Assembly: GCA_018385425.1 (NCBI GenBank)
Contig: JAHBAA010000039.1
Span: forward strand, 1-64,000
Source of the DNA: Acetatifactor sp.
GTDB lineage: Bacteria > Bacillota > Clostridia > Lachnospirales > Lachnospiraceae
Direction: 5' to 3'
Length of the DNA stretch: 64,000 bases
Shown here: positions 3,501 to 51,873 of the stretch, in pieces
Layout: every line of letters begins with the position of its first letter
Position numbering within the stretch: position 1 is the stretch's first letter
Made by a program: the position numbers and the translations under genes
Notes under the pieces: model-generated
What the model was told of the DNA's origin: nothing
Databases searched by the model: none
The model's input: the letters and a program-made list of their open reading frames with translations, nothing else

Positions 3501-4184
3501 ATGAAACAATGTTTTTATTCTCTTGGAATCGGAATGGCGGGTTTACTCTGTTATGGTCTGTTGTTTCTGCTGAGCGGCAATCTGACTGAGGCGAAACAAG
3601 AGACTGTCAGAGTCTTATCCATGGATGTGCTGTATTGCGGAATCAGGGACACCTGTCTGCTGACTATGGATGACGTCAAAAAGTGTGTCGACAACCGGAC
3701 AGAAGGGACAGGTTTTCATGCTTCTACCGAAAGGGCGAAGGTGTTTGAGGACATCGATCTGCCCGTAATAAATCTTCCGCAGGAACGTTATCTGTGGGAC
3801 GTGGAGGAGAAGGAACTGGATATTCTTCGACGGATCGTGGAGGCAGAGGCAGGCGGGGAGGATCTGGAGGGGAAAATGCTGGTGGCCAATGTTGTGCTGA
3901 ATCGGGTAAAAGAAGAGGACTTTCCCGACACCATTGCAGAGGTAGTCTATCAAAATCGAAACGGAACCTATCAGTTTTCGCCTGCAGGAAGCGGAAGGAT
4001 CGACCGGGTAAAGGTGAGCGAGGAGACCGTAGAGGCGGTAGAAAATGTTTTGCGGGGAGAAGACAGTTCAGAAGGCGCCTTATATTTTGTGGCAAGAAAA
4101 CATGCAAAAAAATCCAGTATAAAATGGTTCGAAGAGGAACTGGAATTTTTGTTTTGCCATGGTGGACATGAGTTCTACAAATAA
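3501..4184 (+). CDS. Cell wall hydrolase (SleB/Hydrolase_2-like), N-terminal signal/TM
   Basis: IVEAEAGGEDLEGKMLVANVVLNRV...TIAEVVYQNRNGTYQFSPAGSGRID motif of SleB/CwlJ-type hydrolases. Confidence 0.8.
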   Translation: MKQCFYSLGIGMAGLLCYGLLFLLSGNLTEAKQETVRVLSMDVLYCGIRDTCLLTMDDVKKCVDNRTEGTGFHASTERAKVFEDIDLPVINLPQERYLWDVEEKELDILRRIVEAEAGGEDLEGKMLVANVVLNRVKEEDFPDTIAEVVYQNRNGTYQFSPAGSGRIDRVKVSEETVEAVENVLRGEDSSEGALYFVARKHAKKSSIKWFEEELEFLFCHGGHEFYK

Positions 4185-14123: not shown

Positions 14124-14807
14124 ATGACAGAGATGAGTATGATAACCAATGACTGGCTTCCGGCTCTGGAACCGGAGTTTGGAAAGCCCTATTATAAAGA
14201 TCTATACAGATTTGTGCTGCAGGAATATCGTACCGCACAGGTATTTCCTCCTGCGGAGGATGTGTTCAATGCCTTTCATCTGACCCCACTGGGGCAGGTA
14301 AAGGTCGTCATCATCGGACAGGACCCCTATCATAATGTGGGACAGGCCCATGGTCTGTGTTTCTCCGTGAAGCCGGAGGTGGAGATTCCGCCGTCTCTGG
14401 TGAATATTTACAAGGAGCTGGAGGATGATCTGGGGTGCACGATTCCAAATAATGGCTATCTGGTGAAGTGGGCAAAACAAGGAGTGCTGATGTTGAACAC
14501 GGTATTGACTGTCCGGGCCCATCAGGCAAATTCACACAGGGGGAAAGGCTGGGAGCAGTTTACGGATGCGGCGATTCGCGCCTTAAATGAACAGGATCGT
14601 CCTATCGTGTTTCTTCTGTGGGGAGGACCGGCTGGACAAAAGGCTTCCATGTTGAACAATCCGAAGCACTTAGTATTGAAAGCACCCCATCCCAGCCCTT
14701 TATCGGCTTACAGAGGGTTCTTCGGATGCAGACACTTCAGCAAGACCAATGCCTTCCTGGAGGCCAATGGAATACAGCCGATCGACTGGCAGATTGAAAA
14801 TGTGTAG
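14124..14807 (+). CDS. ung: Uracil-DNA glycosylase
   Basis: VVIIGQDPYHNVGQAHGLCFSV, GVLMLNTVLTVRAHQANSH, APHPSPLSAYRGFFGCRHFSKTN. Confidence 0.96.
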   Translation: MTEMSMITNDWLPALEPEFGKPYYKDLYRFVLQEYRTAQVFPPAEDVFNAFHLTPLGQVKVVIIGQDPYHNVGQAHGLCFSVKPEVEIPPSLVNIYKELEDDLGCTIPNNGYLVKWAKQGVLMLNTVLTVRAHQANSHRGKGWEQFTDAAIRALNEQDRPIVFLLWGGPAGQKASMLNNPKHLVLKAPHPSPLSAYRGFFGCRHFSKTNAFLEANGIQPIDWQIENV

Positions 14808-14842
14808 TATGAGATTGAATAGAGACAGAGAGGAGAATCGTT

Positions 14843-15826
14843 ATGAAGATCAGAGTGGCAATTTTTGGTTACGGTAATCTGGGAAAAGGAATTGAGTGTG
14901 CCATCAGGCAGAATGAGGATATGGAGCTGGTGGGAGTCTTCACCAGAAGAGCACCTGAGACTGTGAAGACACTGACAGGAGTACCGGTGTATGCAGAGTC
15001 TGAGCTGGTGGGCAAGAAGGATGAGATCGATGTTTTGATGCTTTGCGGAGGCTCTGCAACCGATCTTCCCAAGCAGACTGCAGAGTATGCCAAGTACTTT
15101 AATGTAGTGGACAGCTTTGATACCCACGCGAAGATCCCGGAGCATTTTGAGAAGGTCAATGCTTCCGCTGCGGAGGCGGGCAAGATCGCTATGATCTCCG
15201 TGGGCTGGGATCCCGGGATGTTTTCCCTGAACAGACTGTATGCCAACTGCATTTTGAGAGATGGAGCCGACTATACCTTCTGGGGAAAGGGTGTCAGCCA
15301 GGGACATTCCGATGCCATCCGCAGAATTCCGGGTGTTAAGAACGCAAAACAGTATACCGTTCCTGTGGAGTCTGCCGTTGCTGCAGTCAGAAACTGTGCA
15401 AATCCTGTGCTTTCCACCAGGCAGAAACATACAAGAGAGTGTTTCGTCGTTCCGGAGACCGGTGCTGATCTGGCTGCCATTGAGACCGCCATCAAGACCA
15501 TGCCCAACTACTTTGCAGATTATGATACGACCGTGCACTTTATCACAGAGGAGGAGCTGGAGAGAGACCATGCCGGAATCCCTCATGGCGGCATGGTGAT
15601 TCGAACCGGTAAGACCGGAATAAACGGCGAGAACAATCATGTGATCGAGTACAAGCTGACCCTGGACTCCAATCCGGAGTTTACGGCCTGTGTGCTCACT
15701 GCATATGCAAGAGCAGCCTATCGAATGAACCGGGAAGGACAGAAGGGCTGCAAAACGGTATTCGATGTGGCACCCGCATACCTTAGTCCCTTAAGCGGTG
15801 AGGAACTCCGTGCTCATCTGCTGTAA
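14843..15826 (+). CDS. ddh: meso-Diaminopimelate dehydrogenase
   Basis: RVAIFGYGNLGKGIECAI; CGGSATDLPKQTAEYAKYFNVVDSFDTHAKIPEHFEKVN; GWDPGMFS...GKGVSQGHSDAIRRI. Confidence 0.92.
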   Translation: MKIRVAIFGYGNLGKGIECAIRQNEDMELVGVFTRRAPETVKTLTGVPVYAESELVGKKDEIDVLMLCGGSATDLPKQTAEYAKYFNVVDSFDTHAKIPEHFEKVNASAAEAGKIAMISVGWDPGMFSLNRLYANCILRDGADYTFWGKGVSQGHSDAIRRIPGVKNAKQYTVPVESAVAAVRNCANPVLSTRQKHTRECFVVPETGADLAAIETAIKTMPNYFADYDTTVHFITEEELERDHAGIPHGGMVIRTGKTGINGENNHVIEYKLTLDSNPEFTACVLTAYARAAYRMNREGQKGCKTVFDVAPAYLSPLSGEELRAHLL

Positions 15827-15831
15827 GAAAA

Positions 15832-16017
15832 ACTTCTTTTCGGAATGGGGCTCCCGACAAGACCTTGTGTGTCTGTTGCAGACTGTAGCGAGACGTCGGT
15901 ACTTAGGCTGCGTACTCTGCAGCCTTATGTACCGTTACGTTGAGGTCCAAGCGGAAGCGTGTCTGCAATCAGACATACAGGTCTGAAGTCGAAGGAGCCC
16001 CATTCCGAAAAAGAAGT
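15832..16017. repeat. ~186-nt intergenic near-complete palindrome (MITE-like element or structured RNA)
   Basis: Arm acttctttt-cggaatggggctcc (15832-15854) pairs with ggagccccattccg-aaaaagaagt (15994-16017); inner arms gacaagaccttgtgtgtctgttgcagac / gtctgcaatcagacatacaggtctgaagtc and ggtacttaggctgc / gcagccttatgtacc also pair. Confidence 0.85.
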
Positions 16018-16052
16018 AAGAACTTGAATAAATTGCTTGAATGGAGAAACTT

Positions 16053-17330
16053 ATGAAAAAAACATTTGTGACAAAAGAATTGGTGGAGAGGATCGTGAAA
16101 GAGTATCCCACCCCCTTTCATATTTATGATGAGAAGGGAATCCGTGAGAATGCAAAAGCCCTGAAGGAGGCCTTTGCCTGGAATAAAGGCTATAAGGAGT
16201 TTTTCGCCGTGAAGGCGACTCCCAATCCCTTCCTCATCAATATCTTGAGAGACTACGGCTGCGGCTGCGATTGTTCTTCTATGACGGAGCTGATGCTGTC
16301 CCATGCCATGGGAGTGGACGGATCTGACATTATGTTCTCATCCAACGAGACACCTGCCAGCGAATATGCCTATGCGGCCGAGATCGGTGCCATTATCAAT
16401 TTGGATGACATCACCCACATTGATTTTCTGGAGAAGACATTGGGATATCTGCCGAAGACCTTAAGCTGCAGATTTAATCCCGGCGGATATTTTGCCCTTG
16501 GAACGGATATTATGGATAACCCCGGGGATGCTAAGTACGGCTTTACAACCGAGCAGATGTTTGAAGGGTTCCGCATTTTAAAGGAGCGGGGCGTGGAAAA
16601 TTTCGGAATTCATTCCTTCCTGGCCAGCAATACGGTGACCAATGAGTATTATCCTACCCTGGCCCGTCAGCTTTTCGAACTGGCTGTACAGCTGAAGGAG
16701 CAGACCGGGGCGCATATCACCTTTATTAACCTCTCCGGCGGCGTAGGAGTTGCCTACAAGCCTGATCAGACACCGAACGATATCAAAGTCATCGGTGAAG
16801 GCGTGCGCAAGGCTTACGAGGAGATACTTGTTCCTGCAGGTATGGGTGACGTAGCTATCTACACGGAGCTTGGCAGATTCATGATGGCTCCCTATGGAAA
16901 TCTGGTAGTACAGGCGATCCATGCAAAGCACACCTACAAGGAGTATATCGGTGTAGATGCCTGTGCGGTAAACCTGATGCGTCCTGCGATGTACGGTGCA
17001 TATCATCACATCACTGTGCTTGGCAAGGAGGAGGCTCCCTGTGATCATAAATATGATGTGGTAGGCTCTCTGTGTGAGAACAATGATAAGTTTGCCATCG
17101 ACAGAATGCTTCCTGAGATCGAAACCGGGGATTATCTGGCTATTCACGATACCGGAGCCCACGGCTTTGCCATGGGATATAATTATAACGGCAAACTGAA
17201 ATCCGCGGAGCTGCTGCTCCATGAGGATGGAAGCGTGGAGATGATCAGACGGGCTGAGACTCCTCAGGACTATTTCCGCACCTTTGACTGCTTTGCTATC
17301 TACGATAAGCTGTTTCCTGAGAAGAAATAA
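16053..17330 (+). CDS. lysA: Diaminopimelate decarboxylase (LysA-like, PLP fold III)
   Basis: PTPFHIYDEKGIRENA...EFFAVKATPNPFLINILRDYGCGCDCSS...; SGGVGVAYKPDQ; follows ddh; alternative upstream ATG at 16041. Confidence 0.85.
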   Translation: MKKTFVTKELVERIVKEYPTPFHIYDEKGIRENAKALKEAFAWNKGYKEFFAVKATPNPFLINILRDYGCGCDCSSMTELMLSHAMGVDGSDIMFSSNETPASEYAYAAEIGAIINLDDITHIDFLEKTLGYLPKTLSCRFNPGGYFALGTDIMDNPGDAKYGFTTEQMFEGFRILKERGVENFGIHSFLASNTVTNEYYPTLARQLFELAVQLKEQTGAHITFINLSGGVGVAYKPDQTPNDIKVIGEGVRKAYEEILVPAGMGDVAIYTELGRFMMAPYGNLVVQAIHAKHTYKEYIGVDACAVNLMRPAMYGAYHHITVLGKEEAPCDHKYDVVGSLCENNDKFAIDRMLPEIETGDYLAIHDTGAHGFAMGYNYNGKLKSAELLLHEDGSVEMIRRAETPQDYFRTFDCFAIYDKLFPEKK

Positions 17331-51787: not shown

Positions 51788-51818
51788 TGAAAAGACTTTT
51801 CAGAATTATAAAAGATGG

Positions 51819-51873
51819 CAAAGCAAGGTGTCAAGAAAAAATACTTGACACCTTGCTTTGCTTGTAGTATAGT
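51819..51873 (+). promoter_or_regulatory. 17-bp perfect inverted repeat overlapping the -35 of a near-consensus promoter for ylxM-ffh
   Basis: caaagcaaggtgtcaag (51819-51835) / cttgacaccttgctttg (51844-51860); TTGACA 51845-51850, 17-nt spacer, TATAGT 51868-51873. Confidence 0.75.

Follow-up and report, generated by a model that had tools for sequence, protein, structure and literature searches.

In the 64,000-nt stretch of Acetatifactor sp. DNA analysed here (the window; assembly GCA_018385425.1, contig JAHBAA010000039.1, positions 1 to 64,000), a nearly complete palindrome of 186 nt separates ddh from lysA. Does it serve these two genes, or does it belong to something that merely landed between them? 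A first-pass annotation, made from the letters alone, had offered a MITE-like element, a REP-like element or a structured RNA modulating ddh-lysA expression, on the premise that many dispersed copies would speak for a MITE and covariation for an RNA. Both were observed, but the two are not alternatives here, as it is the head of a mobile element that covaries.

The palindrome between ddh and lysA

Direct reading of the arms bears out the near-palindrome (15832-16017), its start a few nucleotides past the ddh stop codon, and the outer arms (ACTTCTTTTCGGAATGGGGCTCC.. from 15832, ..GGAGCCCCATTCCGAAAAAGAAGT to 16017) and apical stem as first described. A search for inverted repeats over the whole window recovered the outer arms as well (pair I2, 18 nt, 100%). 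Folded as RNA, positions 15815-16030 reach a minimum free energy of -112 kcal/mol, compared to -58.3 +/- 4.7 for shuffled sequences (z -11.5), and the hairpin folded as DNA gives z -12.5 on the plus and -11.9 on the minus strand. The element adjoins the ddh stop codon at its start, ends ~24 nt from the lysA start and measures 186 bp, and the open reading frames in and around it are chance frames and those of the neighbouring genes, none being element-specific (Table 1). At this site, an Rfam search returned no lysine riboswitch, in agreement with the initial impression, and no other family reaching its gathering score, and a scan for Rho-independent terminators and sigma-70-like promoters found neither. 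Elsewhere in the window (51818-51861) lies a perfect inverted repeat of 18 nt, its loop 8 nt long, that is unrelated to the element.

The heptamer GTAAGAA, previously read as a possible target-site duplication, does occur on both sides of the palindrome (15823-15829 and 16016-16022), but it does not make a perfect duplication at the element boundary: aligned to the boundary of the family, the flanks TAAGAAAA and TAAGAACT read as a direct repeat of 8 bp that is imperfect, matching at 6/8 positions. Both genes were found in 12 relatives. In nine of them the ddh-lysA gap spans 26-73 nt, and the element was not seen in the longer gaps of the other three, which identifies the copy in the window as an insertion. 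Besides, the genus is not uniform at this locus (window 14124-17330; L225-L249): some of its species have ddh flanked by a uracil-DNA glycosylase-like gene and lysA, others have lysA immediately behind the glycosylase-like gene with no ddh between; ddh thus looks sporadically gained or lost.

Table 1. Parts of the element copy in the window and the genes on either side.
Feature	Position	Strand	Remarks
ddh, meso-diaminopimelate dehydrogenase	14843..15826	+	intact to its stop; name from the initial sequence reading, fits the position before lysA
Left flank TAAGAAAA, putative target-site duplication	15824..15831	+	imperfect, 6/8; includes the ddh stop codon
Whole element, near-palindromic MITE-like insertion with class I ends, no ORF	15832..16017	+	ends fixed by TIRs and class I copies
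Left terminal inverted repeat ACTTCTTTTCGGAATGGGGCTCC	15832..15854	+	degenerate version of the class I end GTCCCTTTTCGGAATTGTGTTCC
Left inner arm, outer stem P1	15855..15876	+	
Conserved head, three-way junction P1 / P2-P3 / P4	15877..15967	+	covariance model 93.1 bits, E 1.1e-23
P2-P3 arm of the head, ACGTCGGTAC ... GTACCGTTACGT around covarying apical stem P3 (~15905-15925)	15893..15940	+	
P4 mini-hairpin AGC-GGAA-GCG, GNRA-type loop	15950..15959	+	
Right inner arm, outer stem P1	15968..15993	+	
Right terminal inverted repeat GGAGCCCCATTCCGAAAAAGAAGT	15994..16017	+	
Right flank TAAGAACT, putative target-site duplication	16017..16024	+	imperfect, 6/8; boundary uncertain by 1 nt
lysA, diaminopimelate decarboxylase, downstream gene	16041..17330	+	

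Copies in the host genome and across the family

The palindrome has many dispersed relatives in the host genome and others beyond it. In the host, BLAST detects dozens of further full or partial copies, and searching with a covariance model of the head yields 40, of which 39 are strong. The copies occupy unrelated intergenic sites, and several coincide with contig ends, so that the repeat may limit the assembly of these genomes. Intergenic placement holds for 135 of the 137 copies with callable neighbours. With respect to the head, 46 flanking genes were co-oriented and 45 opposed (replication-strand bias, too, was assessed through gene orientation alone), and the genes around copies converged in 27 cases and diverged in 17. 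Genes recurring beside copies were just common transporter and signalling genes, and this search by recurrent flanking genes yielded no autonomous partner. Some remnants have lost the head while the ends remain.

Certain arrangements of copies were observed as well. Near-identical units form head-to-tail tandem arrays with a period of 164-187 bp (L261 and L262 in G171; L264 and L265 in G000), and close divergent pairs, minus then plus strand, stand ~250-470 bp apart (L033, L072, L096, L105, L147; C11 and C22 of G167). L140 and L156 have the appearance of copies with exchanged halves, and several host copies directly follow a terminator-like stem-loop with a T-run (L009, L017, L019, L025; G000).

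In a sample of roughly one genome per genus, the head model matched 129 of 299 genomes of the host family, Lachnospiraceae. Across the order (295 genomes), every genome listed with a match belonged to this family, and of five matches among 399 genomes of the phylum, four were Lachnospiraceae and one (G973) came from another class. The latter genome holds five divergent copies (L341-L345) with similar heads, whose arms are mutually unrelated yet well paired. Records with the exact head pattern are mostly named Lachnospiraceae or genera thereof; the few labelled otherwise, e.g. Muribaculum or Gastranaerophilales, we suspect to be misassigned MAGs. The search of viral contigs and plasmids gave no match. 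A head-like stretch occurs at 4075-4144 of an unverified 4.2-kb faecal phage scaffold (MT839589.1, L260), possibly bacterial DNA.

A covarying three-way junction at the hairpin tip

The deeply conserved part of the element is its head, ~91 nt at the tip of the hairpin that fold into a three-way junction, in which the apical stem covaries and a GC-GNRA-GC mini-hairpin stands beside it. Aligning 49 diverse copies resolved four helices: P1, where the outer stem reaches its inner end; P2; the apical P3; and P4, a hairpin of just two pairs that closes a GNRA-type loop and whose stems covary (GC/GC, GT/AC, AC/GT). Many bases of the head, the GNRA loop set among them, vary little or not at all within the family.

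The covariation is strong. In the 49-copy alignment, which was not fitted to the covariance model, both-sided changes occur in 15 of 24 pairs, and the observed covariation score was matched by 0/500 shuffles. An alignment of 117 copies, fitted to the model and hence biased towards it, shows both-sided changes in 20 of 24 pairs (464 cells, compared to 42-84 in slid controls, and again 0/500 shuffles). A few of the conserved P2 columns had entered the search pattern and are thus not independent evidence, whereas P3 and P4 lie mostly outside it; comparisons of head and arm conservation within genomes are confounded wherever the arm window runs past the element, as in G016, and were not used as primary evidence. 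Searching Rfam at gathering and relaxed thresholds returned unrelated matches only.

The kinds of pairs bear on whether the fold is one of RNA or of DNA. In P2-P4, G.T cells amount to ~1% of Watson-Crick cells (a near-invariant G.T at the P3 loop excluded), compared to 50 G.U in 498 pairs (~10%) in tRNAs from the same loci, for which the A.C count is uninformative since the tRNA finder takes standard pairs only. This scarcity in the head is a hint of folding at the level of DNA or of correction by template switching. Outer-arm mismatches comprise 315 G.T and 282 A.C, with no strand bias, and G.U outnumbers A.C in P3 (12 to 3) as well as in inner P1 (18 to 7), an excess that selection on RNA would produce.

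One head, several kinds of ends

Four end classes were defined, with at least three unrelated TIRs. Class I, the class of the host genome, ends in GTCCCTTTTCGGAATTGTGTT and has weak support for an 8-bp duplication (2/9). Class II (TAGGYRATTGCGAAACT) goes with a 10-12 bp duplication (identity at 11 bp 0.47, compared to 0.31 in re-paired controls) and class III (GTAACAGTTCAGCC) with one of 8 bp (0.60 vs 0.29); the ends of class III, with a GTAA start and 8-bp duplication, might be of IS66-like origin. Class IV (GGTTCGGGTGTCAAAAGCCC) shows a 7-bp duplication in 12 of 13 elements (0.93 vs 0.48), and its copies are often inserted at the end of another small palindrome with GGAAAGTC..GACTTTCC (L287-L293, L304, L324; G227). 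Heads remain 67-75% identical between TIR classes whose ends are unrelated. As differing duplication lengths suggest different transposases, one conserved fold is probably carried by MITEs that use different transposases.

Multi-copy insertion sequences are often absent from draft assemblies. A TIR-pattern search of six genomes, mostly drafts (G000, G017, G041-G043, G227), found no autonomous partner, and the IS4-type DDE family was represented in five genomes by two single copies, neither with matching ends. A 1.07-kb TIR pair (L203) was rejected as an autonomous element, since its repeats pair by chance and the gene they enclose has no connection with transposition.

Discussion

The hairpin between ddh and lysA is one member of a real, mobile, family-wide MITE-like kind and not a one-off regulator. 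Among the candidates proposed at the outset it is the MITE-like one that stood, given ~40 dispersed copies, TIRs, target-site duplications in relatives and short ddh-lysA gaps there. The element is short, lacks a transposase ORF and combines TIRs with many dispersed copies; its duplications stand out from controls in classes II-IV, are weak in class I and reach 6/8 at the window copy. Mobility is well supported, and the palindrome is likely an inserted copy of a non-autonomous element that would be mobilised in trans and whose conserved head would be functional.

It is ordinarily the ends that define a MITE, and a conserved interior is lacking; ERIC, Correia elements and the pneumococcal BOX and RUP are comparable bacterial examples. 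The bcr1 repeats of the Bacillus cereus group are likewise MITE-like and dispersed with a conserved secondary structure, but they differ from our element in sequence, lineage and fold, and we know of no three-way head or variety of ends among them. With bacterial MITEs as reviewed (PMC2229807, PMC10969869), e.g. QMITE2 of Coxiella, the element shares its short, non-coding, palindromic make-up with TIRs, target duplications, intergenic placement, tens of copies and a stable stem-loop. Unlike usual MITE families, which are defined by a shared TIR, it presents a ~91-nt head common, family-wide, to unrelated TIRs and differing duplication lengths. Integron attC sites, folded-DNA hairpins recognised by IntI (cf. 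PMC11641012), would resemble it as imperfect palindromes with conserved features in the folded strand; it differs by random orientation and target duplications, and an integrase or cassette array was not seen. In the literature, thinly covered as to subscription papers, we found no earlier description of such an element or of a conserved folded head on elements with different ends.

Could the palindrome nevertheless act as a structured RNA, an attenuator, mRNA-stability element or sRNA whose folded transcript alters the expression of ddh-lysA or other neighbours? The strong covariation, the GNRA-type loops on one strand and the position of the window copy within an apparent ddh-lysA operon would fit, and transcripts of MITEs are known to form stable stem-loops (PMC10969869). 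However, the site is not conserved in relatives, orientation to neighbouring genes is random, which argues against a cis-regulatory RNA, no terminator or promoter was detected by the scan, no Rfam family corresponds and G.U pairs are scarce in P2-P4, so that we consider a regulatory RNA improbable. The head would more likely act as DNA than as an mRNA regulator. A DNA hairpin with a mini-hairpin, in a genome with one RAYT-like Y1 protein, also brings to mind REP/RAYT-type elements moved as single-stranded DNA by a hairpin-recognising Y1 (HUH) transposase. REP/REPIN and CGTC-tagged repeats are 20-40 bp long, carry a GTAG or CGTC foot and were reported from other phyla (PMC3733652). Like our element they are dispersed extragenic palindromes, and CGTC repeats likewise lack a dedicated transposase, but ours measures 180-300 bp, bears TIRs and target duplications, the latter unexpected for Y1 transposition, is randomly oriented to its neighbours and has no GTAG foot; its CGTC lies in a paired helix and alternates with CGCC. 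Membership in the CGTC-tagged superfamily was rejected, and with no 20-40 bp unit tagged by GTAG or CGTC in the head consensus and the sole RAYT-like gene not flanked by the element, the REP-like candidate is not supported; a Y1-driven origin appears highly improbable. That gene (L059, G000:C101:31626-31970) is flanked by its own GGACGGTGTTTTTGG repeat, a separate REP-type family that also occurs near some element copies (e.g. L021, L182).

Two further explanations concern how the palindrome came to look as it does. Arms and strict Watson-Crick covariation might stem mainly from quasi-palindrome correction by replication template switching, with selection only on the invariant single-stranded bases of the head. 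Arms that vary between copies but remain complementary, arm mismatches free of strand bias, and pair changes by Watson-Crick steps with few G.U intermediates all agree with this, yet correction alone is insufficient for the (near-)invariant head bases found family-wide; it deserves serious thought, at less than even chances. Alternatively, the head may be a module that is selfish or recognised by the host, for instance as a nuclease-resistant cap, a signal for replication or recombination, or a ribozyme, and that has passed between transposons, the ends being exchangeable and the head not. The same head on at least three TIR/TSD classes, similar heads with unrelated arms inside one genome, swapped halves and inverted pairs, and the extension to another class of the phylum would suit such traffic. 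On the other hand, its direction cannot be told, and the classes are largely lineage-specific, compatible with slow drift of ends, which leaves this reading rather doubtful.

Returning to a MITE-like element mobilised in trans, we picture the following sequence of events. A transposase supplied in trans, by inference of the DDE type, would act on the terminal inverted repeats and place the unit between genes, in one orientation or the other, while duplicating a short target (class I fits ~8 bp), and the paired arms would let the whole unit fold as one long hairpin capped by the three-way-junction head. The same head on elements with differing ends and duplication lengths across Lachnospiraceae suggests a functional module, which would be needed for the spread or persistence of the element and not be a by-product of one transposase. 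It is probably a folded structure recognised by a protein. More tentatively, and with a good deal of doubt, the head might be a shared adapter, as folded DNA or as RNA in trans, that lets unrelated mini-transposons spread or persist through recognition by a host or mobile protein.

In summary, the interior of this element is kept across a whole bacterial family while its ends change, with a structure backed by covariation, and this combination points to an unknown recognition event. The sparse G.U pairs call for caution in structured-RNA screens, as a repeated palindrome can covary without being a functional RNA. For the gut Lachnospiraceae, the element constitutes a family-wide marker.
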